A DNA stretch of 60,531 nucleotides, from positions 1 through 60,531 of the IMG/VR virus record IMGVR_UViG_3300040979_000011. The stretch is one strand, 5' to 3'. Source of the stretch: a virus. Of the stretch, positions 23,181-51,036 are shown in pieces (positions within the stretch are counted from its first letter, which is position 1; each line of letters starts with the position of its first letter). Both the position numbers and the translations under genes were made by a program. The notes under the pieces are model-generated. The model ran no database searches. It was given only the letters and a program-made list of their open reading frames with translations, and was not told where the DNA came from.

Positions 23181-23513
23181 ATGAGTCATACCAAACCGAT
23201 CGAGTTAGGCCGCAGCTTTGATGAGCTGGCCATTCCGATCATGGAATCGGCCAGAGATAAAAAGCATTACCCAGATCTTTTTCTGAGTGACGTCGACGAT
23301 GAGCGCATTCTCGATCTGCCTGACGAAGGCGTAGCCGAGATCCACTTCAAGGTGATCTCGCGCACCCATCGAGAAGAAAACGGCGATGGCAAAAAGAAAC
23401 GGCGCTCATGCTCGTTGCGGCTCGAGATCTATTCCATCGAGCCCGGTCACGACCCGAAGTTCAACGGCAACGGCAAGAAGAAGAAAACCCACTGGGAGAT
23501 GTTCAATAAATGA
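23181..23513 (+). CDS. Hypothetical protein preceding the neck protein
   Basis: A 110-residue acidic and lysine-rich protein, MSHTKPIELGRSFDELAIP. A beta-strand pattern EGVAEIHFKVISRTHREENG occupies the middle and KKKKTHWEMFNK the end. It overlaps the next gene by four bases (ATGA). Possibly a head decoration or completion protein by position; unrecognised. Confidence 0.55.
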   Translation: MSHTKPIELGRSFDELAIPIMESARDKKHYPDLFLSDVDDERILDLPDEGVAEIHFKVISRTHREENGDGKKKRRSCSLRLEIYSIEPGHDPKFNGNGKKKKTHWEMFNK

Positions 23514-25924
23514 TTGTTGTCTCTGACGTCATTGATCAGGTGGGCCGGGTGCTCGGAACCTGCGAACCTTCCTACACCTATGACGTCCTGACGCGCGCGG
23601 TCGAACTGCTGGCCAACAAACCCACCAAAACCAATGTGGTGTGGGATCCACTGATTTGTTACGTCGATCTGCCCGTAGTTAACGGCTACTACGTCTGTCT
23701 CCCACCGCATGTCTTAAAGCCGATCAAAATCAATCTGAATAAAGCGCCGGCCTTCACTCGCAACCAGTTCTTCGAGTTCAGTATGAACGGGCCCGGCTCG
23801 ATTGATCCCGAGGCTGGCTGGAGCTGGCAAGATCGTGGCTGGAAAGCGTTGCAGAAACCGTGGCCGCCCGGCGGCGCGCCTTACATTATGATGTCGAGCG
23901 ACTCAGCCGATCTCAATACAATCATTAAAGTCCACGTCGTTAACGAAGATCAATCCACCAGTTGGCTCGATGTCTTTATTGGTCAGCCTTACGAGACGAA
24001 GATCTACGGGATACTGGAAGCCTCCAAGCCCGACACCAAGGGCACGATCTCGGTCTACTCTAATCACTTCGTCTTAGAGAGTGCTCTGGTAGCCCAATGG
24101 GCTCCAGAAGTGCATTACCCGCAGTTTGAGTGGATCAAGCTTTCTCAGAACGCTGTTGCCTGCAAAATGCTTTGTCGGCGGCGCACCTACAAACTGACCC
24201 TGCCCACCGATGTCATCCCTCTCTCCAATCGGCAAGCGATCATCACCGCCTGCCTCGCCATCAAAGCCTACGACACCCTCAACTGGGACGACGGAGCTAC
24301 CGCTGAACAAAACGCTCTTCGATTCCTCGAAGAAGACCAAGGGGCGCGCAACCTCTTCCAGCGTGTTAGCAACATTGCTGAGACGAGCCCGACGCTTAAC
24401 CTGACGATCAACACGCGCGATTCGATTATCGCCGCCGATCTCTACGACTTTGCTTGCGACGTCTTCGGACCAATCGGCCAGCAGAAGATTTTTGATCGCA
24501 TGACTGAGGCGATCGAGCTCTTGGCTAACCTCGGGCCGATGTGGGATCCAATGATCGGTTATGTCGATATCACGACCTGGGACAGCTTCTATGTAACCTT
24601 ACCTCAGTACGTTGATCAGGTTTTGGCCATCAATGTGAATCACTCGATCGGCACCTTCAGGAACCAATGGTTCGAGTTTCACATGAACGGACTGGGCCAG
24701 GATAACGATCAGGCTGATGCAGTCGGCTCCAACCGGCCCTGCGGCGGCTGGGAAGAGATCGGCGAGATGCCGTGCGCTTTCCCTTTAATAGCTCCTTCGT
24801 ACGTAGTAGCGGCTCCTGTTAGTGCCACTGACAACGGTACCCCTATTCGGGTGTGGGGCATCGACATTAACGACCTGCCGATCTACGGCCCTGATGGTCT
24901 GCTCGGGATTCCAATAACTTGTGAACAAAACAGCTACGATATCACTAACCAGCAAAATCCTATTAAGCGAATCGACCGGATTGTTATCGAAGGCAGCCCT
25001 CAAAGCTTCATTCAGCTTTATGCTACGGACGGCACCCAATACCTGCAGAACTTAGGCACCTTCTGGCCCAATGTGGCCGAACCGAAGTTCCGCGTTATCA
25101 AGATCGGCCAGAAAGCCGTGACGGTGCGGCTCCGTTACAAGAAACGCCTACTCAAAATTACTTCGCTCACCGATCCGCTACACATGCGCTCGCGTAGCGC
25201 GCTCATGAACGCACTGCGCTCAATTGAGACGGCTACCATGGATGCGGCCAGTGCGGGAGCCCTTCTCCAGAGTGCCAGCATGTTGCTCCAGCAGGAATGG
25301 CGCGCCACCCATCCACACGAGACCCTCGGGATGCAGGTCGATCCGTCTACTTGGGGGGCATCGTTCGTTCAGATGCCAGCTCTATGTCCAATCCTTCTTC
25401 TTTCGTCGATTCAAGGCTTGTTCCCGATAAGTAGCCCAGTGCGCATTTCCTGGCTCATAGCCCCGATTGTTATCTATGCGCTCAAGAGTCAGCCGTGGTT
25501 CAGGAGGTTCGCCAACAGCGCGATAAAAACTCTCAAAAGAGTTTTCCCATTCAGGGCACACGGTAATTCTGCGCATCTGATAATTGCGAACTTCCTTTAT
25601 TCTCTTGGAACCCTTTGTGCGCAGTTTCATATTCATCCACGCCAAATAGACTTTCGATCTAGTCATGCCATGAGTGCGTCTCTTGGCTCCAGTCACCTCG
25701 CGACGCAAACAACCACAGCTCTTGGTGCCGTGACGCCTCAATGCTTGCCCCGTTGCGGTAATCTCTTTTCCACAGTCGCAGACACAAAGCCAAAGAGCTT
25801 TTCGGCGGACATTGGTTCCGACACGCCTCACTACAATGAGGCGATCAAAACGCTGTCCAAGCAGGTTAATCGCCGTGTTCATCCCGGCTCTGATCTGATT
25901 TTGGTTGGGGTGACGCATTTGTGA
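23510..25924 (+). CDS. Neck/tail protein with tandem-duplicated domain and foreign antisense C-terminus
   Basis: An 804-residue frame. Two related halves are visible: VELLANKPTKTNVVWDPLIC and NQFFEFSMNGPG in the first, IELLANLGPMWDPMIGYVDI and NQWFEFHMNGLG in the second, about 325 residues apart. This looks like a duplicated tail or gateway domain. Residues after about 625 are encoded opposite the minus-strand HNH gene at 25382-25918 and do not resemble a natural domain. The original protein probably ended near residue 625 and the frame happens to stay open through the inserted gene. Confidence 0.6.
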   Translation: MIVVSDVIDQVGRVLGTCEPSYTYDVLTRAVELLANKPTKTNVVWDPLICYVDLPVVNGYYVCLPPHVLKPIKINLNKAPAFTRNQFFEFSMNGPGSIDPEAGWSWQDRGWKALQKPWPPGGAPYIMMSSDSADLNTIIKVHVVNEDQSTSWLDVFIGQPYETKIYGILEASKPDTKGTISVYSNHFVLESALVAQWAPEVHYPQFEWIKLSQNAVACKMLCRRRTYKLTLPTDVIPLSNRQAIITACLAIKAYDTLNWDDGATAEQNALRFLEEDQGARNLFQRVSNIAETSPTLNLTINTRDSIIAADLYDFACDVFGPIGQQKIFDRMTEAIELLANLGPMWDPMIGYVDITTWDSFYVTLPQYVDQVLAINVNHSIGTFRNQWFEFHMNGLGQDNDQADAVGSNRPCGGWEEIGEMPCAFPLIAPSYVVAAPVSATDNGTPIRVWGIDINDLPIYGPDGLLGIPITCEQNSYDITNQQNPIKRIDRIVIEGSPQSFIQLYATDGTQYLQNLGTFWPNVAEPKFRVIKIGQKAVTVRLRYKKRLLKITSLTDPLHMRSRSALMNALRSIETATMDAASAGALLQSASMLLQQEWRATHPHETLGMQVDPSTWGASFVQMPALCPILLLSSIQGLFPISSPVRISWLIAPIVIYALKSQPWFRRFANSAIKTLKRVFPFRAHGNSAHLIIANFLYSLGTLCAQFHIHPRQIDFRSSHAMSASLGSSHLATQTTTALGAVTPQCLPRCGNLFSTVADTKPKSFSADIGSDTPHYNEAIKTLSKQVNRRVHPGSDLILVGVTHL
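25382..25918 (-). CDS. HNH/AP2-type homing endonuclease inserted antisense in a structural gene
   Basis: A 178-residue protein. An AP2-like N-terminal module (FDRLIVVRRVG, WLCVCDCGKEITATGQALRR, SCGCLRREV), then HGMTRSKVYLAWMNMKLRT and an HNH-type LTLERIDNNRGYEPGNAHWA are typical of phage homing endonucleases that carry a DNA-binding zinc module. It lies fully inside the 3' part of the tail-protein frame, on the other strand. The insertion would have replaced or extended the last part of that gene. Confidence 0.75.
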   Translation of the reverse strand: MRHPNQNQIRAGMNTAINLLGQRFDRLIVVRRVGTNVRRKALWLCVCDCGKEITATGQALRRHGTKSCGCLRREVTGAKRRTHGMTRSKVYLAWMNMKLRTKGSKRIKEVRNYQMRRITVCPEWENSFESFYRAVGEPPEPRLTLERIDNNRGYEPGNAHWATYREQALNRRKKKDWT

Positions 25925-25934
25925 GGATTATACT

Positions 25935-27758
25935 ATGGGAGCGCAGTCCTACAAAATTCTCATGGACGGCCAATGGTCGGGCGGGGTCGACAGTTATCTT
26001 TACCCGACCGATCTGGTTCAGGGCACTTACGCCTGGGCAGTTAACGCTGTTAACCGTGGCGGTGTAGTTCAGACCCGGCCGGCCAAACGTCGGGTCAAGA
26101 GTTTTTGTGGCCATCGGGCACAAGGTCACTTCTGGGTGCGGACAATGGATGACCGCAACTACGAACTGGTGGCGATCGACGGCAAAGTCTACTGGTCGCC
26201 CTTTCCTTTTACTGACTGGACACCGATGGAAGGCGTTAACCTTCGTCCTGATGCCGAGCGGATCTGGTTCTGTAACGCCGAACAGGCAATCCAGTACGAT
26301 AGCAGCAATTTTATTACTACGATCGAGCCGAAGAACGTCGTCTTCATGCAGGACGGCTCGAGCCTTCCCTGTTACTGGGATACGAGCGATTTTTCCAGCG
26401 GCGTCGTCAACCTGAATTATGTCACCGGCGAACCAGCAAAGCCGATGCCGACCGGCACGGCCATGCTCTGGCAAGACAACCGCCTCTGGTTAGTGATCGG
26501 TAACTTGGTGTTCGCTTCCGATCTGCTTTATCCGCAGAGTTTCAGTGAAGAGACGTATTTGGCCGAACAGACGGGTTTCCGTTTCCCACGGCCGGTAGTC
26601 AATCTCTGGCCTTCACCGGTCCAAGGCATCCTGGTCTTGACCAACTCGAGTATGCATTCGCTCCAGAGTCAGGTTCAGGACCGCACCCAGTGGCAAACTA
26701 CGCCCAATTTCCAGGCCGACGTTAACCTGGAAGTAGGACTAATCGCGCCATTTGCTATCGCTAATTTGCACGGGATGCCATGGATTCTCACCGCGCGCGG
26801 GCTGATCAGCTACGACCGCGCTCTGACACAAAACTTGAGCACCGTTCTGCTCACGGTCGACGCTGAGATGCAGCGGAGCAAAAACTTAATTGCGCCCGAT
26901 GTGACTCATGCGGCAATCGGCTTCTGGGAAAATGTGCTGATGGTGGCGATGCCCGCCAGCTCGCCCTTTAACCGGCACACATGGATCATGGACGGCGGCA
27001 TAGCCGAAAAACTCAATAACACTCAAGGGATGTGCTGGGTGGGAATCTGGACTGGCAGCTATCCGGTACAGTTTACTTCTCCGATCATTAATGGAACCCA
27101 GCACAACTATGAATTGGCTTACTCGAGCGGCTTTCTGTCGCTCAACTACGGCGATAGTCCATCGCCACAGCCTGAGACCACGATGCCGCCGCAGGCCTAC
27201 ATCCACTTGTACGAGAACTATACGCCTAATCAGTTCCAGGATGTTGAAAACCCGATTCATTGCTCGCTAGAGACCAAAGCTTTCACGCTGGAGACCGACG
27301 ATTACTACCGGTTTGTCTTTGCCGAGTTCATGCTTGTCAACCTCAAAGGCATTGTGCCGGTCCAGGTCTACGTGACTGGGCTGGGTGGCAATTACCAAAA
27401 GCTCTTTTCTACGACTTTGCGTGCCGACGTTGGCCCTTGGGGTAACCCCAGCCAGGACACCAAGCTCTATTATGTGGCTGAGGGTAAGACGACCCGGTTC
27501 GAGAACTATCGTCGGCAGGTCCGGCACATGCGGACCCAGGAATTTATCGTACACGAGAGCGCCGATGAAGCCGCCTGCCTCGAGATCGGGCGCTTGGACG
27601 GAGTCGATAAAGGTTTCCAGCTCATGATCCAGTGGCAAGGCCGGATGGGTGTGCGCGCGATCAAATTCTTCTACGACCGGCAGCTCCAGAGTCCGCAAGG
27701 GACTTGTCCGACTGATGAAACTCAAAGCCAGCACATCGTGCTCGAAGCAACTGCATGA
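25935..27758 (+). CDS. Tail structural protein
   Basis: A 607-residue protein, MGAQSYKILMDGQWSGGVD. Repeated beta patterns with conserved Trp, Gly and Asn (YLYPTDLVQGTYAWAVNAVN, MLWQDNRLWLVIGNLVFASD) resemble propeller-like tail-tube or adaptor proteins found after the neck protein in podovirus-like phages. It overlaps the next gene by four bases. Function is inferred from order and beta-rich composition. Confidence 0.55.
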   Translation: MGAQSYKILMDGQWSGGVDSYLYPTDLVQGTYAWAVNAVNRGGVVQTRPAKRRVKSFCGHRAQGHFWVRTMDDRNYELVAIDGKVYWSPFPFTDWTPMEGVNLRPDAERIWFCNAEQAIQYDSSNFITTIEPKNVVFMQDGSSLPCYWDTSDFSSGVVNLNYVTGEPAKPMPTGTAMLWQDNRLWLVIGNLVFASDLLYPQSFSEETYLAEQTGFRFPRPVVNLWPSPVQGILVLTNSSMHSLQSQVQDRTQWQTTPNFQADVNLEVGLIAPFAIANLHGMPWILTARGLISYDRALTQNLSTVLLTVDAEMQRSKNLIAPDVTHAAIGFWENVLMVAMPASSPFNRHTWIMDGGIAEKLNNTQGMCWVGIWTGSYPVQFTSPIINGTQHNYELAYSSGFLSLNYGDSPSPQPETTMPPQAYIHLYENYTPNQFQDVENPIHCSLETKAFTLETDDYYRFVFAEFMLVNLKGIVPVQVYVTGLGGNYQKLFSTTLRADVGPWGNPSQDTKLYYVAEGKTTRFENYRRQVRHMRTQEFIVHESADEAACLEIGRLDGVDKGFQLMIQWQGRMGVRAIKFFYDRQLQSPQGTCPTDETQSQHIVLEATA

Positions 27759-27955
27759 AACCGAAGACAACGCCGCCGCCACAGCCTAATTCCCAGGTCC
27801 CGATCGGGCTCGCCCCTCAGACCGGTATGCCCGCGATTTATTCGAGCCGATCACGCGAGCTGCTTTACGACACGCTCATGCACGAGCCGCTTTTTGTGAT
27901 GAACCCATTTGGGCCTCAGGTCTTACCTGCTTCACGTAAAAACCATCACTGGTAA
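27755..27955 (+). CDS. Small proline-rich virion-type protein
   Basis: A 66-residue protein, MKPKTTPPPQPNSQVPIGL, with a disordered proline-rich start and a hydrophobic end (EPLFVMNPFGPQVLP). It fills the gap between two tail genes with no spare bases on either side (stop at 27953-27955, next ATG 27956). Function unknown. Confidence 0.5.
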   Translation: MKPKTTPPPQPNSQVPIGLAPQTGMPAIYSSRSRELLYDTLMHEPLFVMNPFGPQVLPASRKNHHW

Positions 27956-29452
27956 ATGCCCCAACAACAGATACCGCTGACGATTGCGATTGCGCCCTTC
28001 CCGGAAGGTTTCCAGGGCGACATGGACGAGACCTTCCAACAGGCCGTCCAGAACATGGAGGCCTATATCGAAGGCAACTTCCTGACTGGATTGATCCTGC
28101 CAGCTGGTTCGACCTTACCTACGACTGATCAAGGCCCCGTCGCGATGGGCGATCAATGGTACTTCTGGAATGACGCTACCCAGAGCTACCAGCCGCAAAC
28201 GGTATCGACCAAGGTAGCGACTAACTTCGCGAAGAATTCTGCTTATCAAGTCCAGCAGACTGGTGCCGCTTTTAATCCGCCCAACGGAGTCAGCAAGACC
28301 TATGATCTGACACTGTTCCGCAATACTCAGGCTGCAGGGTTTGTGGCTATTAATGCCGATACCGGGCCGATAGCTGGAGCTGACAACGATCCCATTCCGT
28401 CAGCCATTCGTTATACGGTTGGCCCTTCTCTTTTGCCCAGCCCGGCCGCAACCGATCTAGTAACTCATGAGCATGTTTTTGAAGGGATCGATATCTCGCC
28501 TCTAATCGGACAGGCATTGAGTCTGTCTTTCAGTTTCTGGACCAATACGCCGGGTGATTACTCAGCTTATCTAACCAGTGCCGGGCGCGATGTCTCGATT
28601 GTTCTTCCATTCCAGATCGTTACGCCCGATGTATGGACTCGAATCAAGTTTCCAGGCCTTCCGCCGCTACCCACTGGTCAAGGCACCTGGAACTTTGGTG
28701 AAGGAGTGACCGGACTCTATTTCGGGTTGCCCCTCGCGATCGGCAGTCAATGGCAAACAGCCAGTGCTAATAGCTGGCAGAACCAGTTTGTCGGCGGCAC
28801 TAGCGCCAACATTAATCTGTTATCGATTGCCAACAACCAAATCAAACTCACTGGCCTAAAACTCGAGGCTGCCCCCAGTGTTAGCTATTACTCGATGCCG
28901 GTCTTTGACGCCGATTACTGGCAGGCCACTCGCTATTACTGGACCGGGTTCGGCTACCAGAGTCAGACCCCATCGATTCCAAGCTTTGGCCAATGCCAGC
29001 TTGATGGTCGATGGATGATCGCACAGCTCTTTGCTCATCGGATGTGCAACGCTCCGAATGTCGTGCCCTACAGTTATGTGACTCCGGCTAATCCGGGTTT
29101 CATCAGCGATCTCTCGACGGGCTATGAAATTGCCAAGGCTACCCTGGCAGCCATGCGCAAGGGCATGAATGATTCGGCAACTCTGACGGCCGTTTCTGTT
29201 ACTGGCAATATAACCAGCGGCAGCGCTACGGTTACTGCCGTATCGAGCACAGCCAATCTCAAGGCCCTCATGCCGGTCACTGGAGCTGGGATCCCATTCG
29301 GGACCGTGATCCGTAGCGTGGACTCAGGCACTCAAATCACCTTAAGCCAAGCCGCAGGGACTACCGCGACCGCCGTTGCTCTCACCGTTAACCAGACCCG
29401 CCGGGGCGATACCCTGGCCTGTTACCTCGTTGCCGATGCACGCCTTAGCTGA
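27956..29452 (+). CDS. Tail fibre/appendage-like protein
   Basis: A 498-residue beta-rich protein. Residues about 60-330 have a jelly-roll-like pattern ending IKLTGLKLEAAPSV, and DYWQATRYYWTGFGYQ follows; this LTGLKLE plus aromatic RYY arrangement is familiar from phage appendage proteins. A late beta repeat (GNITSGSATVTAVSSTANLK) forms a small domain. Probably virion, with sugar-binding potential. Confidence 0.55.
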   Translation: MPQQQIPLTIAIAPFPEGFQGDMDETFQQAVQNMEAYIEGNFLTGLILPAGSTLPTTDQGPVAMGDQWYFWNDATQSYQPQTVSTKVATNFAKNSAYQVQQTGAAFNPPNGVSKTYDLTLFRNTQAAGFVAINADTGPIAGADNDPIPSAIRYTVGPSLLPSPAATDLVTHEHVFEGIDISPLIGQALSLSFSFWTNTPGDYSAYLTSAGRDVSIVLPFQIVTPDVWTRIKFPGLPPLPTGQGTWNFGEGVTGLYFGLPLAIGSQWQTASANSWQNQFVGGTSANINLLSIANNQIKLTGLKLEAAPSVSYYSMPVFDADYWQATRYYWTGFGYQSQTPSIPSFGQCQLDGRWMIAQLFAHRMCNAPNVVPYSYVTPANPGFISDLSTGYEIAKATLAAMRKGMNDSATLTAVSVTGNITSGSATVTAVSSTANLKALMPVTGAGIPFGTVIRSVDSGTQITLSQAAGTTATAVALTVNQTRRGDTLACYLVADARLS

Positions 29453-29468
29453 ACCAGACAAAAGCGGT

Positions 29469-29843
29469 ATGTCGCTCATCCAGATCAATAACGAACGCGA
29501 GATCGCTCAATTCGGTATTGACCGAATTGCCGAACAGCTGTGGGGCGGCCAGGTTAGTCGCCAGTTCCCGATCTATCTGGTGCTGCATAAGGGACGAGTC
29601 TGCGGCTTTTTCCAAGCAATCCAGCAGACCTGTATCTACCCGGCGCTGCATCCTGAGATGATGTCCTCACGGGAGTTCGTGAAGGTCGCCAAGAGCTTGG
29701 CCACCGAATTGAAGCGGCACATCGGCAACCCAGTTTTCATGCTCTGCAAAAAGGCAACCGAGATAGGACCCAAAGGTATGCGAATGGTGCGACTCAAGAA
29801 AGCGCCCGAAGAGGCCTACATCTACACCGAGGAGGCTGGTTAA
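29469..29843 (+). CDS. Hypothetical virion-associated protein
   Basis: A 125-residue protein from MSLIQINNEREIAQFGIDR. An alternative ATG at 29436 overlaps the upstream gene. The fold looks alpha/beta with a His/Cys-containing core (YLVLHKGRVCGFFQAIQQTC). It is followed by one base and then the next ATG. Unrecognised; virion assembly suggested by position. Confidence 0.5.
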   Translation: MSLIQINNEREIAQFGIDRIAEQLWGGQVSRQFPIYLVLHKGRVCGFFQAIQQTCIYPALHPEMMSSREFVKVAKSLATELKRHIGNPVFMLCKKATEIGPKGMRMVRLKKAPEEAYIYTEEAG

Positions 29844-29844
29844 T

Positions 29845-31296
29845 ATGGGCGGCGGCGGTGGTGGCGGCGGCTCTACTCAATTCAGGGCTCAGGGAGCGCC
29901 CCCGAGCTTTACCTATCTTACGCCCGAGAGCCTTCAGCAGATGGCGGTCGGTGGCGATATCCAATCCTACGCGCTGAGCGATCGGGATTTCGCTAACCGT
30001 TACCCTTCATTACAGAGCGCCTACGATCAGTACCAAGCTAACCTTGGCCAGCAGGTTGGGATCGTCGGCCAGGGCCAAGTTGGGCAAGGGGCTTTGATGC
30101 AGGGCCTGGGCGGCCAGATCGCCGGACGCTGGGCTACACCAACCACCAGCGACATCACCGGGATCCGTAACGCGGCGGCCACTGCCGCGCAGGCGACTCA
30201 ACCAATCTATTCGCTGGGCCAATCCCAGGCCGGGTTAGCTCAACCACTGATTGGTCTTGGTCAGCAGCAGGCCGGGATCGGACAGGGTATCGCCGGGCTC
30301 GGCAGCCAATTAGCCGGTAGATCTCAGGTTCCCTGGCAGACCGGGATGAACCTGCTCAATGCGCCGATTGATCCGCAGGTCCAGCAGCAAATGATGCGCG
30401 CTGGCTTGGGCACGACTGCCGGCGCGCTTGGCGCAGCTTCGCTGGGTCAAGGTATGGCCGGGCAGGCTGCTGCCGCCCGACAGTTGGGCTTGAACACGAT
30501 GCAGTACGGCCAACAACGGCGTGCCGAGGCCATGCAGGACATCAACCAGTATGCCTCGATGCTCGGGCAGGCCGGTCAATTGCGAGGTCTAGGCGCGCAG
30601 ACGATCGGTGCCGGTGGCCAGACCATCGGGTTGGGTGGTCAGCAGCTGCAACAGGGTGCGCAAACCTATGCGCTCGGTGGCCAGAGCGCTGCGGTCGCGG
30701 GCGGCCTTTCGCAAGCGGCTCAAACTGCTCAGGAGCAGTACGGCATGGATACCGCTCAAATGGCCCAGATTTATGGCGGGCTCCAGGGCCAGCAAGCGCA
30801 GAACCTCCTTGGTTCTATTGCCAATGCGGGCCAGCAGTTTGCTAAACGTCCATTCGGCCTGGGCGGCACCAATATCGCCCAGGCCGAGCTGGGCCAGATC
30901 GGAGCCTACAATTCGTTCCAACAGGCCAACTATGCGACGATGAACGGCATTGCCTTCAACGCCGCTCAGATGAACGCTCAGCAGCAGCAGCTCCAGGCCC
31001 AGCAGAGTGCCGGTATGGCCAGTGCCGCAGTTGGTGTGGGAACGAGTGCTGCAACGACCGGCGCGACCATTGCCGCCCTGAGCTGCTGGGTGGCGCGCGC
31101 AGTTTACGGCGAGGGCCACCAGATGCGTACTTTCCGTCATTGGCTTTTAAACAAAGCGCCCAGAATCATTCGTCGGACCTACCTGCGTCACGGCAAAACT
31201 TTTGCCGAGATAGTGCGCGCTCACAAAGTTGTCCGAGCCATGGTCAAACTTTTGATGGATCCTGTCATCGAAAGGACCGTCTATGTCAGACTCTGA
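29845..31296 (+). CDS. Gly/Gln-rich internal virion-type protein, adjacent to YcaO
   Basis: A 483-residue protein. After an eight-glycine start it is a long Gln/Gly/Ala-rich helical region with repeats such as GQQQAGIGQGIAGLG and GLGGQQLQQGAQTYALGG. The last 75 residues are a different, compact module beginning SCWVARAVYG and continuing FRHWLLNKAPRIIRRTYLRH, a C-terminal module I recall in other phage structural proteins. It ends 14 bp inside the ycaO start, so the two are coupled. This context makes it a candidate YcaO substrate; no direct evidence. Confidence 0.6.
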   Translation: MGGGGGGGGSTQFRAQGAPPSFTYLTPESLQQMAVGGDIQSYALSDRDFANRYPSLQSAYDQYQANLGQQVGIVGQGQVGQGALMQGLGGQIAGRWATPTTSDITGIRNAAATAAQATQPIYSLGQSQAGLAQPLIGLGQQQAGIGQGIAGLGSQLAGRSQVPWQTGMNLLNAPIDPQVQQQMMRAGLGTTAGALGAASLGQGMAGQAAAARQLGLNTMQYGQQRRAEAMQDINQYASMLGQAGQLRGLGAQTIGAGGQTIGLGGQQLQQGAQTYALGGQSAAVAGGLSQAAQTAQEQYGMDTAQMAQIYGGLQGQQAQNLLGSIANAGQQFAKRPFGLGGTNIAQAELGQIGAYNSFQQANYATMNGIAFNAAQMNAQQQQLQAQQSAGMASAAVGVGTSAATTGATIAALSCWVARAVYGEGHQMRTFRHWLLNKAPRIIRRTYLRHGKTFAEIVRAHKVVRAMVKLLMDPVIERTVYVRL

Positions 31297-32554
31297 AACC
31301 AAAACTCGTTCCCAAATTCGCGCTGAGACCGCCCAAGCGATCAACAGTCTTTCCAGGGCTGAGCTGCTCAAGAACTTTGCCATCTCACGCGTAGCGGAAC
31401 TGACCGGCCTGGACTCGATCGGCGTGCCCGTCTTTACTTGTGTCCGGGCCCTTTCTGACACGATCAGCATCCACGGCGGCAAAGGTCTGGAACGAGATTA
31501 TGCGCGCTGCGGCGCGATTCTTGAGGGCATTGAATTTGAAGCGGCTGAACATCCGCAAGGCGATTTCATCGTTGGACGACCAACTGATATCCCGGCCGAG
31601 GATCGACTCGCGATTGAGGATTGTTTTCCAACCAGAGCCAGCACATTCAATGATTTCACTCAGCTAGCCTGGGAAGAGGTGACCAACGCCCAGAACGGTA
31701 AAAGCACTCTTATACCCAGTGACCTGATCTGGATGACGTCAAGGTTAAAGAACCAGCCGCTAATGTTTGTCCAGATGGGCTCCAATGGCCTTGCCAGTGG
31801 CGGCACCAAGGAAGACGCGATTTTAAGTGGGCTTTATGAGATCATCGAACGCGATGCCTGGACCTTGAATCAGTTCCTGTTGGATAACTGTGGGGTCTTA
31901 CCAACGCGCAGCCCGCTGATTAACTTGAGCGAGCGCATGGAAGGTCTCGTGCGCAAAATCGAGGCAGCTAAAGTTAAGCTCTACCTCTTTGATATCACGA
32001 CCGACGATTTTCGGGTGCCGGTCTTTAGCGCCATTCTGTTGGACTTGAGCGGCCATGTGGCTGGCACCTTTGGCGGATTCGGTTGTCACCTTAATGCCGA
32101 GGTCGCGGCTATCCGCGCCATCACTGAAGCGGTTCAGGCGCGTGCCTGTTACATCTCGGGCGCGCGCGATGATCTGTTCCGGCGGCAGTTCCTTCTCATG
32201 AAACACATGGATCAGCACAAGCTGGATTCGATGTTCAGCGAGCTGCCGGTTGGTAGTCCACTCAGCGATTATCGGGTAACCAAGTTTCCCGATATCCGCA
32301 CCGAACTTCGTTACCTGCTCAAATTGATCCGGCAATCGGGCGTTTCGGAGGTCTTTGTTAAACCGATGGGTGTCTTTCTGGACGGCGCGGTCCATGTAGT
32401 CAGAGTCTTCAGTCCCCAATGCGAGCCTTTCCGATTCGACCACTGGACTCCCGGTTTGCGCTGCCTCTCTTACGCCACGCGCAAGATGGAAACCTTGGCT
32501 GAGAAAGCGCCACCAGCCAATAACGAGGAGGGCGAACAATGGAAAAAGGAATGA
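31283..32554 (+). CDS. ycaO: YcaO-family ATP-dependent cyclodehydratase/thioamidase
   Basis: A 423-residue protein. ATP/Mg-binding motifs are visible: ILEGIEFEAAEH with E81 and E84, GSNGLASGG and YEIIERDA (about 167-192), and GCHLNAEVAAIRAITEAVQA (about 268-287). The protein length fits a stand-alone YcaO domain. The C-terminus lacks the PxPxP ending of azoline-forming enzymes. YcaO enzymes activate peptide amide carbonyls with ATP, giving azolines or, with TfuA, thioamides. It overlaps the previous virion gene and the tfuA gene, so it is expressed with structural proteins. Unusual in phage genomes. Confidence 0.9.
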   Translation: MSDSETKTRSQIRAETAQAINSLSRAELLKNFAISRVAELTGLDSIGVPVFTCVRALSDTISIHGGKGLERDYARCGAILEGIEFEAAEHPQGDFIVGRPTDIPAEDRLAIEDCFPTRASTFNDFTQLAWEEVTNAQNGKSTLIPSDLIWMTSRLKNQPLMFVQMGSNGLASGGTKEDAILSGLYEIIERDAWTLNQFLLDNCGVLPTRSPLINLSERMEGLVRKIEAAKVKLYLFDITTDDFRVPVFSAILLDLSGHVAGTFGGFGCHLNAEVAAIRAITEAVQARACYISGARDDLFRRQFLLMKHMDQHKLDSMFSELPVGSPLSDYRVTKFPDIRTELRYLLKLIRQSGVSEVFVKPMGVFLDGAVHVVRVFSPQCEPFRFDHWTPGLRCLSYATRKMETLAEKAPPANNEEGEQWKKE

Positions 32555-33879
32555 TCCTCGTTTATCTGGGTCCGAGTCTGCCGGTAGCTAAGGCACGCGA
32601 GATTTTACCCAATGCCATTTACCGGCCGCCCGCGCGCCAGGGCGACATTGTCACCGATGTTGTCACCTACTCTCCCTCGAGAATCATCCTAATTGACGGC
32701 GAATTTCGGCAGAATTTGTCAGTCTGGCACAAGGAGCTGGTTTACGCCCTCCAATACCCTGGGATCGAAGCTATTTACGGTGCCAGCTCGATTGGTGCCT
32801 TGCGAGCGGCTGAACTGGATTACCTCGGCATGATCGGCATCGGCCAGATCTACGAATGGTACCGGGACGGAGTGACCGAAGACGATAGCGAGGTAGCTCT
32901 TTCCTATGCGGCTCGCGATTCACTCGATGGGCCAGTCTATTTCCCTTCGACGGTACCGTTAGTTAACATTCGGGCTGCGGTTGAGCATTATGAGCGGGAA
33001 TTCCCGGGCGAACCGGTCGCGATCGCCGCCAGAGAGTTCTTGGAAAGCGCACGCAAAATCTTTTACATGGACCGAACTCCGCAAATCTGCGACCAGCTTT
33101 GGGAAGCGCGTTTCGGAATCAGTTTTCCTTCGATCGATCAGAAACGAATCGATGCGGTTCATGCGCTGACGGATTTCTCCACCTATCAGCCCAAAATAGT
33201 CGAAACGCCTAAGCCGGAATACCTCTCGGGGTTTTTCCAGGCTCTTTACGACCGGGACCGGCGAATCAATGTAAACGGCACCCCGGTCCCACAGCAGCAC
33301 ATCGATTCCTACGTGCTCTTACACAACCCGGAATGGGAACGGATCTGTTGGGATAGCGCTAACCAAGAGTTGGCGCTGATGCTCTGTAATCTCTTTAGCG
33401 TCACCGTATCGATCGAAGAGATCGGCCGGGAAAGCGCACGTTTTCAGAAAAAGAGCGAGATCGTTACCGAGGCCGATTTCCACGCCTTCTTAGAAAACAA
33501 CGGCTGGAGCGTGCCCGAATACGATCGGTTGATGATTCAGAATGCGCGGATTCGCAAACTTCAGCACCACATAACTGTTAGCAAAGGCTATCAGCGCAAC
33601 ACGCGCTCAATAATCGATTATCTGCGTACCCATCAGGCCTTTGATTACTGGGCGGTTCAAGCCGCACGCGAGGAAGAGAAACTCAAAAGCTCGGGCGTGG
33701 ACGATTGGCTCACGATTAATCTGGAGAAAACTGCGCTCGACCAGTTGGCTGAACACTTTGAAAAGGAGGGACTAGAACTCAAAAGCACACCCGAAGAATA
33801 CCTGTTGGAAACCGGATTCTCGAATTTTACCGAGCTGAGTGTAGCGCTACAACGCACCGCTGCAGCTGGGGAGGAATGA
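32539..33879 (+). CDS. tfuA: TfuA-like protein (YcaO partner)
   Basis: A 446-residue protein. The N-terminal TfuA core is clear: VYLGPSLPVAKAREILPNAI, RPPARQGDIVTDV, ILIDGEFRQN, and YGASSIGALRAAELDYLGMI (about 80-99). The C-terminal 250 residues are helical and extend beyond a minimal TfuA domain. TfuA partners YcaO in peptide thioamidation, where it is thought to help deliver sulfur. Start overlaps the end of ycaO by 16 bp, indicating one operon. Confidence 0.85.
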   Translation: MEKGMILVYLGPSLPVAKAREILPNAIYRPPARQGDIVTDVVTYSPSRIILIDGEFRQNLSVWHKELVYALQYPGIEAIYGASSIGALRAAELDYLGMIGIGQIYEWYRDGVTEDDSEVALSYAARDSLDGPVYFPSTVPLVNIRAAVEHYEREFPGEPVAIAAREFLESARKIFYMDRTPQICDQLWEARFGISFPSIDQKRIDAVHALTDFSTYQPKIVETPKPEYLSGFFQALYDRDRRINVNGTPVPQQHIDSYVLLHNPEWERICWDSANQELALMLCNLFSVTVSIEEIGRESARFQKKSEIVTEADFHAFLENNGWSVPEYDRLMIQNARIRKLQHHITVSKGYQRNTRSIIDYLRTHQAFDYWAVQAAREEEKLKSSGVDDWLTINLEKTALDQLAEHFEKEGLELKSTPEEYLLETGFSNFTELSVALQRTAAAGEE

Positions 33880-33883
33880 AACT

Positions 33884-35761
33884 ATGGCCACCGAAGCGAG
33901 TTGGGGCAATCTAAAAAACGTCTTTGGCTTAGACGATACTCAAATCCAGTCACTGCAAAAAGCTGGCTATACCGCTGATCAGGCGACCCAGCTTATGAAT
34001 TTGTCGGTAGGCGGCGGCGGCACAGCGACAACTGGCACCGGCGGCAGCAGCACGCGCAGTTACGCTACTCTTCCCACCATCGGCGGCAGCGGCCTTACGC
34101 CCAGTATGCTGGCTACTTTAGCCACTTTGCTTGGGAGAGGCGGCGGCGGGAATCAAGCTCAAGCTCAAGCCGGCCCGCGAATTGTTAGCGGCATTGGCGC
34201 GCCCGATAACCCGCAGGTGGCTGGCCAAGGCGCTCAAGGCGGCAACCAACTGGCTAGTAACCTCAGTGGTCAAGGCAACCAACTGATTACTGGCGGCAGT
34301 CAAGTCGGCGGCGGTCCAGGCGGCACTCAACAGGTTACTGGCGGCGCGATTGACCCTAATCAGGTAATGATCAATCTGGGTGCGCGGGCGCTAAACGAGC
34401 GCGCCGTTTATCCGCCGACACCGGGTCCAGCCGATCCGACCAGTGGTGTTTCAAGCGGTATCGGGCAGTCTAGCGCAACTGGAGCCACTCCCACTGTTGT
34501 TACGGCTGGCGTGCCAACGGCCCGGAATGTCGGACTAGCAGGCAGAAACCTTGGACCCTGGGCAACTACGCCGGGCGTTTTTACTAGGGTTCAAGCCCTG
34601 CAGCCATCGACCCCAATCGGCACGAGCCCTTTTACGCCCACGCCTCAAGCGACCGGGACTCAAGTCGCTCGGCCGCAGCCTTGGGCCACAGCGCCACCGG
34701 CTCCAGGAGTTAACGTCCAGGGAGTGGTGCCACCAGCTGCCCCCGGTGTAGCTCCTTCAGGTCAGGTTCCAACTCAGCCTGGATTCGATGCAGCTCATAA
34801 CTTGGCATTAACTCATGCCGGGATGAGCTTATATGCTCATTACGGTGGCAATCCCTTTTCTGCCAGCCCTGCGGATATCGCTGGCTTTCACGGTGAACTG
34901 CAGGAGGCACTAAAAGGAGGAAAACCCATTAAGATGCGCTCCGGCGGATTAGTGCCCGGTAGCGGAAACAAGGATAACGTTCCAGCACTCCTGACTCCTG
35001 GTGAGTATGTGCTCACTAAAGAGCAGGCAGCGCAACTCTTCGATGGGAGAACCCCGGTTAAAATGCAATCTGGAGGTTCAGTAACCGACGATGATGACCA
35101 ACCGTCTGAGGTTCCGAGGCCTACCCCGGAATCAGATACCGGCGCGGTCACGGCTCAAGGCAAATCCTACCAAGTCACCCCGCCATCAGAAGCTCCCAGA
35201 AGTAGCAGGCAGAAGTCCAGCTCTACCCCGCCAGCCGCTCCAGGTGGCAGTTCCCAAGATTATGCTAACTGGGCTAATCAACCGCAAAATCAGCAACGGC
35301 CTGCAGCCATCTACGATGCCCAGGGCAATGTGTGGGATAGCGATCCAAAATCGATCGCGCAAGATGTCGGCGGCAAAGGCGCGTACATGGGCCCAGGCGG
35401 TGAAGTTTATGATGCCAGTCATAATCTGGTTACTTCCAATGCGGACCTAACCGCGCAAGCCGCTGCTGGCCCAGGCGCAACGATGACTGGCAATCCGATG
35501 ATCGGCGATGGCGCTGGCGGTACCTCGAATGTCGGCAGGAATGTCGGCAGCGCGCTCGGCGGCCTTGCTTCAGCGGTCTCTCAAGCCGCCCAGACTTACG
35601 CTAACTCAATTCAACCCTGGACTTGGCAGAAGTCAGCAATCCCAAATCCGCCGAGTAGTCAAGGGCAACAGCCAGCTGCTCAATTGAGTCAGGTTCGAGC
35701 GCAGCCCAGTAGGCGACAGCAGACGATTTCCCCATTTACCCCTTATTATCCGTACACATAG
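33884..35761 (+). CDS. Large low-complexity virion-type protein
   Basis: A 625-residue protein, MATEASWGNLKNVFGLDDT. Long Gly/Gln/Thr/Pro-rich disordered stretches surround a short motif GGLVPGSGNKDNVPALLTPG followed by EYVL (about residues 352-375), seen in many phage tail or internal proteins; it is echoed weakly at KMQSGGSV. Immediately downstream of tfuA with only four bases between. Probably an ejected internal protein; function inferred from composition. Confidence 0.55.
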   Translation: MATEASWGNLKNVFGLDDTQIQSLQKAGYTADQATQLMNLSVGGGGTATTGTGGSSTRSYATLPTIGGSGLTPSMLATLATLLGRGGGGNQAQAQAGPRIVSGIGAPDNPQVAGQGAQGGNQLASNLSGQGNQLITGGSQVGGGPGGTQQVTGGAIDPNQVMINLGARALNERAVYPPTPGPADPTSGVSSGIGQSSATGATPTVVTAGVPTARNVGLAGRNLGPWATTPGVFTRVQALQPSTPIGTSPFTPTPQATGTQVARPQPWATAPPAPGVNVQGVVPPAAPGVAPSGQVPTQPGFDAAHNLALTHAGMSLYAHYGGNPFSASPADIAGFHGELQEALKGGKPIKMRSGGLVPGSGNKDNVPALLTPGEYVLTKEQAAQLFDGRTPVKMQSGGSVTDDDDQPSEVPRPTPESDTGAVTAQGKSYQVTPPSEAPRSSRQKSSSTPPAAPGGSSQDYANWANQPQNQQRPAAIYDAQGNVWDSDPKSIAQDVGGKGAYMGPGGEVYDASHNLVTSNADLTAQAAAGPGATMTGNPMIGDGAGGTSNVGRNVGSALGGLASAVSQAAQTYANSIQPWTWQKSAIPNPPSSQGQQPAAQLSQVRAQPSRRQQTISPFTPYYPYT

Positions 35762-35772
35762 CAATTTAACTT

Positions 35773-38472
35773 ATGGCCGATCCAGCTACCCAATTCCAAA
35801 CCGCCAGTCTTCAAGCCTCAGGCTATACACCAGTTACTGGTGGAAACCTTGGTGGCTCCCATCTATTCGGAGGCGCTGGAGCGCTCTGGGCACAGGTTGG
35901 CAAGACAGCTCTGGAGGCCGGTGAAGCGATCCAAAAATCACCTCTCAATCCGGCGGTGAGAGCGCAGATACAATATAATGTTGATCAGTACAAGCGTGGT
36001 CAGGAACTAATCGCAAAGCAGCGTCAGATGGGCGATTGGGGCTACCTGCTGGGACAAACCGGTCCGCAAGGCTACAGTCAAATTGCTCCAGGACAAATCA
36101 CTGATCCTACTCTGGCGCAACAGTATCTAAATAGACTGATACCTGGGTATCCCTCAGCAGGAGGAGGCGGCACAGGACCACCGCCAGCTGTCAACACAGA
36201 CACTGGCGAAGGGGGAGGACAGCCTGCGCCACAAGCACCACCTGCAACACCACCAGGAGGACCACCACCTGGAACTTTTTTAAGTCCCGCCACCGGAAGT
36301 TACGAGCCGTTGCAGCAGCCTGAGCAGCCGCCGCAGAAGAAACCAGAGGAGAAGAAGGAGAAGAAGAAGCCGCCTACCGCAAAGGAAATGGGACGTGGTA
36401 CCGCACAGGTCACTCCTGCGACGACTAACATGTTCGCTGCCGCGACCGGAGCACAAGCTCCTTCTCCAACTGACTTCCAGGGACCAACTCAAGCTCAAAC
36501 AGATGTAGCGGTTCGAGAAGCCTTAGGTCGCAACCAGTTCGTTTCTAGTGAACGAGGTGTTCCGGCTGGTTACCAGCCGCCATCGGGTTATTTCCTTAAT
36601 CCGGCTACGGGAAGTTACGAGCAATTGCAAGCGCAACAACCGCAAGCGCAACAACAACCCCAGGATCAGGATCAGACACCGCTGGGCAAACAGCTGATGA
36701 GCCAGTGGCAAAATCAGAACGCGCACCCGGTTGCGCCGGTCAGTGAAGCGCTCAAATGGGGCAAGAACAATTTTGATACCCGGATTCAGGATGCGACCTA
36801 TCTGCCGCATGGCGGCCCACTGAATCAGCCTGCTTACGCCTTCCATATGAAGGGAGGTGGGACAAATTTGGTCCCACTCTCGCAGATGGTACGAAACGGG
36901 TTCGCGCCTAATGTAGCCGGAAACCAGACCTCGATAACTTTGAGTCAGGCCGACGCAATGCAGCCGCAAGCGGACCAAGGTCAGATGCAGCCCACTGGGG
37001 CAGTGAGCGGTCAAGCGCTAGCGCTGCAACAGGGGCAGGGCGCTCAGCCTGCTGTCCAGATGCAGCCAACCGGCAATGTGGGCCAGCCGCAGCCGCCGCC
37101 GGCTGCGCCCGGAGCTGCGCCAGGAGCGATTGCCGGGGGGCTAGCCGGTGCGCCAGCGGCTCCAGGCGGTCAAGAGCTGAGGGATATCTACGGGAATCCT
37201 CTCAGTGCTTATACCGGCCTTCCGTCTAGAGGTGGCCCAGGCCCTGAGCAGTTAACTGCTCAAACGGGACCGGCAGGCACACGTATTGAGCCCGCGCCAT
37301 CACCCACTATTCCTAACGTCTCCAAAGCGGATCAAGATCTGGTCCAAGGCTTGGCAGACAAGACGGCGAAAGACGCTCCCGTTGATAAAATAAGTGGTGA
37401 TCGCAGAGTGGAAGGTACTCCGGCCGGAGGTCCGACTTATTATATAGACGACAACCCCGATTCACCCAGTCGAGGGCGTGTTTACACAGTTCTGCCAGGA
37501 CAGAAAGGATCCTATTATGATCAGGACCGTTGGTATTTAGGTAGAAACGAATACAGAACGTATTCGCTGCCTACATCTGTGATGCGGCAGCATATGGAGG
37601 ACTACTGGGTCAAAGCTGGTCAGCTTACGCCAGCGGAGATCAAAAAGATGAGTCCAGAGGAGATGAAGCCGTGGCTGGAGCGGGCTTGGCAGAATAACAA
37701 TTATACACGGTCTCCTGCAGAGACGGGCACCAATCTCAGCCTTGATACGTTGGAGGATCTCCATAAAACCACTGCGCAAATTAAGGATATACTTAAAACA
37801 GTGGCCAAGCATGGGTACCCAAAGTTGAACTCGATGGATAGAGGTAATGCTGCAATACAGAATGCAGAAACATCTATTGGGCTTCGTGGGGAATGGCTCC
37901 GCTTCATGGAGCCGAGTGTTGCTGAGGCCGTCCGCACCTTGGATCAGAAACTCGATCATGCACGTATTTTGATCAAAGAACATCCAGAATTACTAGTTAG
38001 TCTTGGTACGGCCCAAGGATTAGGATTGCCTAGCCTTCCTGTGCCAATGGTAGGAAATGTAGAACTGCCGAGCATACCGAAGTCAGATGTCCTTAGTGAT
38101 TCAGCTTTTTCCGGCCAAGATGTGGATGCCAAATTAAAGGCCCTAGATGGTTACCAGAAAGCCGTTGATACTCGCTACAAGAACTTGGTTAGCGGAGCCC
38201 AGACGCAGTGGCAAAAAATCGATGATAGACATGCAGCGAACCTGATTAGGTTAGATCAAGGCAAGGAGATACCTGACGAGACCAATCTTTATAGTAGCCG
38301 CGAGCTTCCGACGGTAAGCGAAGCCAAACCGACTGCTCAACCATCACCAACACCTATGGTACATGTTAACAGTCCATCGGAGTTCGAGGCATTCAAAAAG
38401 AAATATCCTTCTGGAACACATTTTATGGGTCCAGACGGCAGTGGTGGCGTCAGAGAGTGGGTAACACCATAG
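35773..38472 (+). CDS. Large low-complexity virion-type protein
   Basis: An 899-residue protein. The first 470 residues are Pro/Gln-rich with two copies of an FLxPATGSYExLQ motif (about residues 171 and 276). Residues about 570-860 are helical and better folded (LDTLEDLHKTTAQIKDILKT, VAEAVRTLDQKLDHARILIK). No enzyme motif. Part of the set of giant proteins at the end of the virion operon, likely packaged and ejected. Confidence 0.5.
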   Translation: MADPATQFQTASLQASGYTPVTGGNLGGSHLFGGAGALWAQVGKTALEAGEAIQKSPLNPAVRAQIQYNVDQYKRGQELIAKQRQMGDWGYLLGQTGPQGYSQIAPGQITDPTLAQQYLNRLIPGYPSAGGGGTGPPPAVNTDTGEGGGQPAPQAPPATPPGGPPPGTFLSPATGSYEPLQQPEQPPQKKPEEKKEKKKPPTAKEMGRGTAQVTPATTNMFAAATGAQAPSPTDFQGPTQAQTDVAVREALGRNQFVSSERGVPAGYQPPSGYFLNPATGSYEQLQAQQPQAQQQPQDQDQTPLGKQLMSQWQNQNAHPVAPVSEALKWGKNNFDTRIQDATYLPHGGPLNQPAYAFHMKGGGTNLVPLSQMVRNGFAPNVAGNQTSITLSQADAMQPQADQGQMQPTGAVSGQALALQQGQGAQPAVQMQPTGNVGQPQPPPAAPGAAPGAIAGGLAGAPAAPGGQELRDIYGNPLSAYTGLPSRGGPGPEQLTAQTGPAGTRIEPAPSPTIPNVSKADQDLVQGLADKTAKDAPVDKISGDRRVEGTPAGGPTYYIDDNPDSPSRGRVYTVLPGQKGSYYDQDRWYLGRNEYRTYSLPTSVMRQHMEDYWVKAGQLTPAEIKKMSPEEMKPWLERAWQNNNYTRSPAETGTNLSLDTLEDLHKTTAQIKDILKTVAKHGYPKLNSMDRGNAAIQNAETSIGLRGEWLRFMEPSVAEAVRTLDQKLDHARILIKEHPELLVSLGTAQGLGLPSLPVPMVGNVELPSIPKSDVLSDSAFSGQDVDAKLKALDGYQKAVDTRYKNLVSGAQTQWQKIDDRHAANLIRLDQGKEIPDETNLYSSRELPTVSEAKPTAQPSPTPMVHVNSPSEFEAFKKKYPSGTHFMGPDGSGGVREWVTP

Positions 38473-38483
38473 AGCTTTATTAA

Positions 38484-41400
38484 ATGCCTACGGCTGCAGA
38501 GCGCGTGTCTTTGGAGGAGGCCAGTCGATATGCCGGGAGCCCAACGCCATGGACATCTGAAAACGCTCCAGATGTTGGCCTTGATCCGAACAAAGGATTT
38601 ACCAATCCACAATTTGGAGTCTCGCAGCCAGTCCAGTCCACTCTGCCGCCGGAAACAACTCCGCCTCCTTCGATGGCACCGGGGCTGGGAACGATAGGCG
38701 GAGCGCCTCTTGCTGAGCCGACAAAAGAAAAATGGACCCCGGCTGATGCTGGTGCAAAGCCAGTTAGTGATCAGAGCAAGGCAGAGACCGCAACTGACAA
38801 CAAGCCCAGCGATAAACCTGCAGGGAAATCATGGACTCCGGCTGATGTCGGTGCAAAGCCAGTCGATCAGACCGCAGCTTCACAGCCCACAGAGAAATCA
38901 TGGACCCCAGCTGATGGCGGTGCTAAGCCAGTCACCACCGAGGCCCAGCCACAGCCGCAGCCACAGCCGCAACCCCAGCCGCAGGCCAAGCAACCGTTAG
39001 TCGTCCCAGCCCCGACACCTCAAGGACCGACGACCACCGAACAACTGCCCGAAGGGCAAGAAGATCAGCATACCCGGATCAATGACCTGATTACTTCCGG
39101 GAAAAGTCCGGGTGAAGCCCAGGCCATCGTCAGTGGCAAGGAGCCTAAGACAATCTCAGGAGCACCGCCGAAGGTAGTCAAACCCGAGGAACCTAAAGCG
39201 CAGGCCGAGCCCGAGGCTCCTCAAGTGCCCCTGGAGGAAGATCCTGTCTTGAAGCACTACCGGGAGGTGGCTCGGCAAAGGGCTCAGGCAGAAGCTCAAC
39301 CCCAGACAACGCAACCGCAGCAGCCTCCCCAGATGATTGAGTACTCGGCTAACCCCAATGCTTATAGCAAGGGCCGGGGCGGTAACCATATCCAGAACAT
39401 TATCCTGCATTCCAGTGATGGCAGCGAAAAGGGCGATGTTAACCAGCTGACTCAACACCTCTCGTCCCATTACTATGTCACCCGGGATGGACGGATCTAT
39501 CACTTCGTTAATGACAACGACAGCGCGTGGCATGCCGGAAAAACCATCAATAATAACACCTACGGCAATTCGGCTACCATTGGCATTGAACAGGAGCACG
39601 TCGACGGCAAACAGGATTGGCCCGAGGCCCAGGTGCGAGCCACTGCTCGATTAACATCCTACCTGCAAAACAAATATGGTCTCAGTAATAGCAACGTCCT
39701 GAAACATTCGGATATCGCACCGGAACGCAAAGTCGATCCGATCGATTATCCCTGGGATAACTTCTATAAATATGTGGCCGAATCCGGCGGCGGCGTCGGC
39801 AAAGGCATAGCTGGTCACGGCGGCGGCGCACTACTGCCGAAGTCCACGGCTGGACTCAATGTCACTCATTTCGGTTACAAGACTGATCCGAATCTCGATC
39901 CCGAAAGCGCCAAAGGTCATGGCAAGTACGTCGACCACATGATTGCTGGCTACGATGTGGCACTGAATAAGGCAGGAGCAGCAAAAGTTGGGAACCCTAA
40001 GCCCGGCGCAAAATTTATTTATGATGGCAGAGAATTTCGTTACGCAGACGCCGTTCCAGAGAAATATGCTGATGCGCGCTTTGACGTGTTTGACCCCAAT
40101 TTCGGCGGTCGCGAAGCAGAGGGCGGCAAAGCTGTCGCTGGTGCCGGTAAAGGCGGCAAAGCTCTCCCCGGTGGAGGTGAAGGCGGGAAACCATCACTCG
40201 AAGGCGGCGGAGGTGCTCCAATTCTCGGCGGTGGTCCGATGGTTTCGGTAGGCTATGCCGGGCCTAGTGGTTCTGCGCAAGCAGAGCAGCAGCAAAGCCC
40301 TTTTTATGCCGGAGGTGGCCGTGGTGGTGGTGGTGCGACCGAAGCTGCACCGGGCGGTGGCGAGTTTTCCATTTCTTACCCTCCCTCACTTGGAGGCGTT
40401 GTTATTGTTGGTGATGGAAAAACCAAAGCGAAACGAATTGCTTCAAAAGAAGAAGAGGAAGAGGAAGAAGATCCCGTGGTCACAGCGCTGATGACTCGTG
40501 GGTTTACACGCCCACAAGCTCTTAAGTTTGCCCTGAGCAGTCGGGCTCTCATTTCCCCTATAGGTGTTCGGGGTGTTCGGACGCAACCTCCAGCTGCTCC
40601 GATACAGCCTTCGACCGCCAAGCCTTTGGCGCTCCCTCCGCCTGCGCCGGCTGCGGCAACGGCGACAGGCGTCAAGCCTTCTCCCGAGGTTACGCTCCCG
40701 TCAAAGCAACCGCAGATCCCTGCTCGGAAAGTTCCACCAACTGCTGCACCGTCAACTGCTGCGTCAGCCGATAAACAGGCGGTAGTCCAGGCTTTAGTGG
40801 GCATGGGTATCAAGAAAGCGCATGCTCAACAGCTCGTAGCCAATGTGCATGGCGCTAACGTAGATGAGCTATTGCGAAACGCTTTAAGAGCGCACGCCCA
40901 GGCCGTCAGGGGAGTTGAGGGCGGCTCCTTCAGGCCACCGCAGCAAACTCCTCCTCCAGCGCCGCCGACACCTAAGCCTCAGGAGCAACGGACCACTGCG
41001 CCAGAGCCGGTGTTGCATAAAGCGCCAGTTCCTGAGCCAGAACCACGACCGGCTGAGGAACCGACTCCGTATCCTACGACAGGTGGAACCCATGGTGTAG
41101 CAAACCCGCCATCATTCGCGAAGCTTACACCAGGACTGAAGTTGTCTGACGCGGTGAAGGAGCACGCTACACTGGTCTCTGAGGATGACCCGCGCGTCAA
41201 GAAACAGGCTGACGGCATGACCAAGGGCGAGCACTTCGTCCCAGGAGATCCGATTCATGATCAGCTGCTTAATGGGTTGCCCGAAGGCCAAGGCGGACGC
41301 CAGCATCAGATACTAGGCGAAGCTGAGCAAGCAATCGCGGAAAAGCGACCAATGCATATCAGCTATCTTTCCGCGCCCAAAGAAGCCCAGCGTTACCCAA

Positions 41401-49157: not shown

Positions 49158-49402
49158 GAGGGTGTTCTATCACGCTTTCGCACTGCCGCAACTTCTCGCA
49201 GATTTGGTATCAGCTTCTGTATCAAATCGGGGCGCTAAAAGCCCTTTCTCCTGGGGAACAGCTCGTCCCTCCGGGACGAGCGGACACCAAAAATTGCCCC
49301 AGGCAAGCTCTGTCTCCTAGGAGCGGTGAAAATTCTGTATATAAAAAGTGTGAATCCTGTTGATCTTTGACCGATCATACTGTATCATCTGCACAATCGT
49401 AT
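49158..49402. promoter_or_regulatory. Integrase/excisionase control region
   Basis: A 245-bp region between divergent xis-like and integrase genes. It contains GATTTG-GTATCA and GTATCA-AATC in an inverted arrangement near 49201-49228, a perfect hairpin GCTCGTCCC-TCC-GGGACGAGC (49261-49281), and another CTGTATCA near 49380. The GTATCA repeats may be integrase arm or excisionase sites; an attachment core cannot be identified from one copy. Confidence 0.45.
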
Positions 49403-50662: not shown

Positions 50663-51036
50663 CTCCAGCCGTGATTCTCGGTCCCAGGTCGAGGAGTGGC
50701 GACATCCCACTCCTCGTCTCCCATCCAAATAATACCGTAAGTAGTCGCAACACTGTAGGGCCCGGCCGAGCTGGGTCCTTTGACTGTGAACTGGCCAGCT
50801 TGAGTCGGTTTGTAGGGAGTTGTTCGGTGCACGATAGCGATCTGGGCAACGCGCGGCAGAGCTTTGTAGGTCTTAGAGTACCGGTCGACGCAATAAAGCG
50901 GCTGGAGGCGATTCTGAGCGGGCCAGACGGTTCCCGGCGCTTTCACGCAAGGCGCTTTAGGCCAGCCAGAGAATTTGCCGCAGCCTGAGTACGGACTCTT
51001 AAAGAGGATGCTCTGGATTATCGGTACTTCGTTCAT
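50659..51036 (-). CDS. Hypothetical protein in the glycosyltransferase operon
   Basis: A 125-residue protein, MNEVPIIQSILFKSPYSGC, beta-rich and with repeated Tyr/Pro/Gly (YKPTQAGQFTVKGPSSAGPY). It is the last gene of the leftward block and overlaps the end of the integrase by four bases. It is coupled by ATGA to the upstream frameshifted gene. Function unknown. Confidence 0.55.
   Translation of the reverse strand: MNEVPIIQSILFKSPYSGCGKFSGWPKAPCVKAPGTVWPAQNRLQPLYCVDRYSKTYKALPRVAQIAIVHRTTPYKPTQAGQFTVKGPSSAGPYSVATTYGIIWMGDEEWDVATPRPGTENHGWS

Follow-up and report, generated by a model that had tools for sequence, protein, structure and literature searches.

Environmental phages of a large group, not described so far, are shown here to carry an intact YcaO-TfuA gene pair, which forms a conserved module of the virion cassette shared by two clades of phage-borne YcaO proteins. 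No such pair in a phage virion cassette was described in the literature that we searched. Our analysis started from a viral record in IMG/VR of 60,531 bases (the whole of which is called the window below), and 96 IMG/VR contigs, the window included, were found to encode YcaO, as a rule followed by tfuA. A first-pass annotation had proposed that a thioamidation-type pair sits among virion genes, which is borne out by invariant residues, by purifying selection, by TfuA in nearly all relatives and by a slot that is kept, with few exceptions, across the 96 contigs. The assignment of the pair to the TfuA-associated, thioamide-forming type is well supported. Our leading interpretation, to which we give slightly less than an even chance, is that the pair is a working phage backbone thioamidase dedicated to the virion and that its likeliest substrate is the Ala/Gly-rich, uncharged segment of the gp14-like protein encoded directly upstream. 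A fuller version is more tentative, and we regard it as possible rather than probable: a thioamidation system specific to phages, and gained by them on at least two occasions, would modify a membrane-active Ala-rich segment of a DNA-ejection protein, and the thioamides would be functional in virions. Backbone thioamides are known from McrA, from RiPPs and from ribosomal protein uL16. If true, our interpretation would add a new location for them, with what is probably a new function, in at least 96 viral contigs, and would offer a testable substrate for genome ejection by short-tailed phages, a step of poorly known chemistry.

The gene pair and its slot in the virion cassette

In the window, ycaO (31283-32554, + strand) encodes a 423-aa ATP/Mg-dependent YcaO and tfuA (32539-33879, +) a 446-aa TfuA of the long type. 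From the letters alone it had been noted that the two genes overlap each other and the upstream structural gene, that a virion-type gene follows after four bases and that no small precursor peptide lies in between, and our data agree on each point. The upstream gene ends at 31296, giving a 14-base overlap with ycaO, and ycaO and tfuA overlap by 16 bases; the next ORF starts at 33884 and has PHROG matches, and no small ORF was found between the upstream gene, ycaO and tfuA. Translationally, ycaO is coupled to tfuA as well as to the upstream gene. Scanning for promoters and terminators around the pair revealed no excess and no prominent internal signal, and the G+C content across the region is even (0.53-0.60).

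The cassette genes listed next are all on the + strand. The probable major capsid protein (21776-23017, 413 aa) was labeled from position and conservation, and the function of a conserved tail protein, probably of the nozzle type (25935-27758), is likewise inferred from position. Neither of these two genes had an identifying sequence match (for the capsid, none in Pfam or PHROG), PDB profile searches with both alignments returned nothing credible, and the structure model of the capsid was unusable (pLDDT 33). Further downstream are a tail-fiber-type gene (27956-29452), which has the same place and is conserved in close relatives and whose product had no Pfam match, a small virion-cassette protein (29376-29843), supported by blastp in 33 relative loci and by its position there, and the gp14-like gene (29845-31296). 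On the other side of the pair we found a 625-aa protein (33884-35761; phrog_35029, 9.6e-11; tape-measure-type phrog_24676, 6e-4), an 899-aa protein (35773-38472), which from its position and partial matches in 12 relative loci is a possible gp15-like ejection protein, and a 1913-aa protein with an N-terminal amidase/endolysin domain (38484-44225; phrog_1794, 6e-20, and others), possibly a gp16-like ejection protein. Upstream of the pair there are PHROG matches of tail-fiber and minor-tail type, and it is from these, from the match of the downstream amidase/endolysin protein and from synteny that the cassette is labeled a putative virion operon.

In clades I and II, ycaO lies directly behind the gp14-like gene in the 85 loci for which the latter was read. 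Tail genes precede the gp14-like gene, and tfuA is usually followed by two to four genes, the last of which encodes a very large protein. Phages without YcaO and TfuA, found as relatives through the 25935-27758 protein, have the same gene order, with the gp14-like gene leading straight to the large genes; in these phages a GNAT-like gene occupies the place of 29376-29843. The exceptions are three clade II loci (L296, L301 and L331) that have no gp14-like gene directly upstream, and one locus (L023) where the pair lies behind a portal-like gene.

Some additional features of the cassette were observed. HNH/homing-endonuclease-like ORFs are inserted in the window (25382-25918, - strand) and in L011 (9502-10041), where the ORF separates the gp14-like gene from ycaO. 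In the 804-aa protein at 23510-25924, a domain of which YcaO-less relatives have one copy (~316 aa) seems to have been duplicated internally in tandem; versions of 1252-1554 aa occur in L324 and L288. In relatives, the homologue of 51033-51581 (-) immediately precedes the capsid gene and has the same orientation, so the window has been rearranged or was assembled differently at this point. FkbM-type methyltransferase and integrase-like genes (51942-53420, -; 49367-50662, +) lie toward the right end of the record.

The gp14-like protein as candidate substrate

The upstream protein (483 aa) is a probable ejection protein, and its likeness to T7 gp14 is an analogy by position and composition, not homology. 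In the window it contains an Ala-rich segment, TSAATTGATIAALS (aa 400-413), followed by a CFI-box-like C-terminal domain that begins CWVARAVYG... (aa 414-475). The protein scored 19.2 bits with CFI_box_CTERM (NF041770), below the cut-off of 40, and the CFI-like family was still recovered in viral contigs. Most gp14-like proteins end in such a domain. The segment compared comprises the 14 residues preceding the CFI Cys or, where the CFI domain is missing, those at the C-terminus. The mean Ala fraction of the segment was 0.47 and 0.52 in a first and a second set of YcaO-carrying phages, as compared to 0.19 in YcaO-less phages; charged residues were absent in the former and amounted to 0.52 per segment in the latter. 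Ala-rich segments (at least 0.35 Ala) made up 96% of 48 unique segments from YcaO-carrying phages and 14% of 63 segments from the others. Also where the CFI domain is missing, in both clades, all of the eight proteins from YcaO-carrying phages terminate in an Ala-rich segment. HMO-2011-type phages (NC_021864 gp25) have a protein with a related C-terminal CFI-box domain followed by large genes, but they lack YcaO and TfuA, and the segment before their CFI Cys is not Ala-rich.

The link between Ala-rich segments and YcaO is a strong correlation built on few independent events. In the tree of CFI domains YcaO presence changes about three times, and nearly all pairs go in the expected direction, short of significance (sign test, p = 0.25); with only about three independent transitions, shared ancestry could explain the link. 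Two other marks of a substrate were tried and rejected. The CFI box itself, found in at least 568 viral contigs, failed since YcaO is absent from 79 of the 80 best contigs with this domain and CFI is absent from eight proteins of YcaO-carrying phages; an 'LSD..F' motif in the N-terminal part of gp14-like proteins is missing in several YcaO-carrying phages.

We infer the thioamide chemistry, the substrate, the role in ejection and the benefit as follows. YcaO with ATP and Mg would activate a peptide-backbone carbonyl and install sulfur, and TfuA would deliver the sulfide by hydrolyzing a thiocarboxylated ThiS-type carrier of the host. TfuA has been described as a hydrolase that acts with such a carrier (PMC13063428). 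ThiS was found in none of 25 phage records, as compared to 11 of 14 control genomes, so the carrier would be that of the host. During virion assembly the gp14-like protein would receive the thioamides in its Ala-rich segment, before its CFI-box domain or at its C-terminus, where they would make a membrane-inserting segment that serves in DNA ejection stiffer or resistant to proteases.

The first-pass annotation had named a virion protein, an ejected peptide or a host target, without choosing. Our comparison favors a virion protein, the one directly upstream, and nothing in the data points to a separate peptide. Possibly, another virion protein (the capsid, the nozzle or a large downstream ejection protein) is thioamidated and the slot is a mere operon position. 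These proteins are encoded in the same transcription unit as the pair, the pair of L023 lies beside a portal-like gene, and the capsid is under extreme constraint: it is 93-96% identical in close relatives, where other virion genes show 50-76%, and its dN/dS is ~0.02 at ordinary dS, so that the constraint reflects purifying selection. In YcaO-less relatives, however, the capsid is just as slow (97%, as compared to 79% for the 25935-27758 protein), so its conservation does not support it as the substrate. Moreover, the downstream genes are poorly conserved among YcaO-carrying phages, and the upstream gene is almost always the shared neighbor of ycaO. We consider a different virion substrate unlikely, while giving it real weight.

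Retargeting of the host is common among phages, and the pair could act late in infection on a host protein, for example a ribosomal protein. A cellular YcaO does thioamidate uL16, a full-size cellular protein, in Pseudomonadota, as the E. coli enzyme does (PMC13063428). In contrast to the phage pair, the E. coli system works without TfuA, and YcaOs suspected of modifying uL16 have no tfuA gene nearby (PMC13063428); in sequence the window YcaO is very distant, with just 28 bits to the E. coli-type model, whose cut-off is 700 bits. Also, in two YcaO clades the pair lies in the virion cassette and is translationally coupled to a virion gene, which argues against a host target; we find such a target rather improbable.

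Properties of the YcaO and TfuA proteins

The window YcaO belongs to the YcaO superfamily (PF02624, 4.7e-55, 187.6 bits; cut-off 25.7), its best NCBIfam matches are the thioamidation-related TIGR03266 and TIGR00702, and it matches PDB 6PE3 (MJ1094; 1.4e-29). The residues that are invariant against five other YcaOs, and likewise across 15 divergent phage YcaOs, include K67, E81, E84, E186, E189, R190, E282, Q285 and R287, and the glutamates among them form the Mg/ATP site, as is established for the family. Loss of the Mg/ATP residues had been named in advance as grounds for abandoning the proposal; the alignment shows none, and the residues are invariant in the 15 phage YcaOs. Furthermore, ycaO adjoins tfuA, the adjacency by which a TfuA-associated thioamide-forming YcaO is recognized. 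The TfuA protein belongs to its family with 105.1 bits (PF07812, 2.7e-30; cut-off 30), and its AlphaFold model (pLDDT 89) matches, over its first half, the fold of M. acetivorans TfuA (6XP8; Foldseek E 9e-14, 223 columns). The N-terminal ~220 aa form the TfuA core and the C-terminal ~220 aa a helical extension, which had no match in the PDB. The extension is common to long bacterial TfuAs and absent from some phages (L109 and L111), and is thus not essential to all; the minimal TfuAs of these phages are 177-195 aa long (L109, 2779-3312; L111, 10930-11517).

YcaO-TfuA pairs form thioglycine in methanogen McrA (PMC5589413). The phage pair resembles that system in both protein families, in the overlapping genes, in the active-site residues and in a proposed full-size protein target, but the phage YcaOs fall outside the archaeal clade, the phage TfuA is ~220 residues longer and no McrA is present. 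The window YcaO also scores below the cut-offs of the McrA-glycine equivalogs (TIGR03266, 166.7 vs. 365 bits; NF033432, 140.5 vs. 235.2 bits).

A C-terminal PxPxP tail marks azoline-forming YcaOs. Azolines or amidines instead of thioamides could be expected from the same superfamily and the same ATP chemistry, but the tail is absent from the window YcaO in the alignment, there is no adjacent E1-like partner, nearly all relatives have TfuA and the nearest NCBIfam models are the thioamidation ones, which together make such products very improbable. That the pair makes a RiPP-like peptide (bacteriocin or toxin) out of a precursor encoded by the phage is in our view more improbable still: many TfuA-YcaO pairs do form thioamides in RiPP clusters (thioviridamide-like and others; PMC8120280, PMC6511847), where a bacterial YcaO likewise adjoins TfuA, but the phage pair lies in a virion cassette rather than a biosynthetic cluster, has neither precursor peptide nor RiPP tailoring genes, and overlaps or touches its neighbors; in the loci compared, neither a conserved small ORF nor a peptidase or transporter gene adjoins it, and the conserved 66-aa ORF of the window (27755-27955) has BLAST matches in close relatives only.

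Distribution, selection and origin of the phage pairs

The first scans with single sequences gave no relatives and alignments were required; IMG/VR scans with these recovered 30 contigs and then 65 more, which with the window makes the 96. No relative was found by tblastn of the window YcaO, the window TfuA and a clade II YcaO against 50,697 GenBank phages, and BFVD held one viral TfuA, labeled COG3482. In all of the 25 phage records that were searched whole there is exactly one YcaO. Both genes are under purifying selection, with dN/dS as low as that of virion genes (close pairs: YcaO 0.055-0.067, TfuA 0.08-0.11, neighboring tail gene ~0.09).

In the phylogeny, clade I comprises 25 phage YcaOs including that of the window (support 100/100) on a long stem, and clade II comprises 21 sampled phage YcaOs (97/89) beside Acidobacteria and Actinomycetota sequences. 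Both lie outside the archaeal McrA, rhizobial and actinobacterial YcaO clades, and the suggested comparison with McrA and RiPP clades thus places the window YcaO in neither the McrA clade nor the sampled bacterial ones. A single phage clade was rejected by the AU test (p = 0.005, for groups named after the tree was seen and with long branches), so YcaO was probably captured by phages at least twice. The TfuA tree recovered clade I (SH-aLRT 85), clade II having been left out by a motif filter. Bacterial loci with YcaO and a long TfuA (~445 aa in several) from Acidobacteria, Actinomycetota and Alphaproteobacteria (L113, L114, L116, L123, L131 and L140) include the nearest cellular neighbors of clade II, but identity is ~30-33% and those loci are cellular.

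The placement of three YcaOs (L107, L117 and L023) is unsure. L117, a marine Prochlorococcus single-cell contig that may be viral or cellular, has the reversed order, TfuA then YcaO. The phage contig L023, outside both main phage clades, carries the pair between its portal-like gene and later virion genes. Another YcaO-TfuA pair beside a transfer machine was seen on a Legionella longbeachae plasmid (L004, 1660-5023), where ThiS/MoaD-like, ThiF-like, YcaO and TfuA genes stand in a row before conjugative pilin TraA genes.
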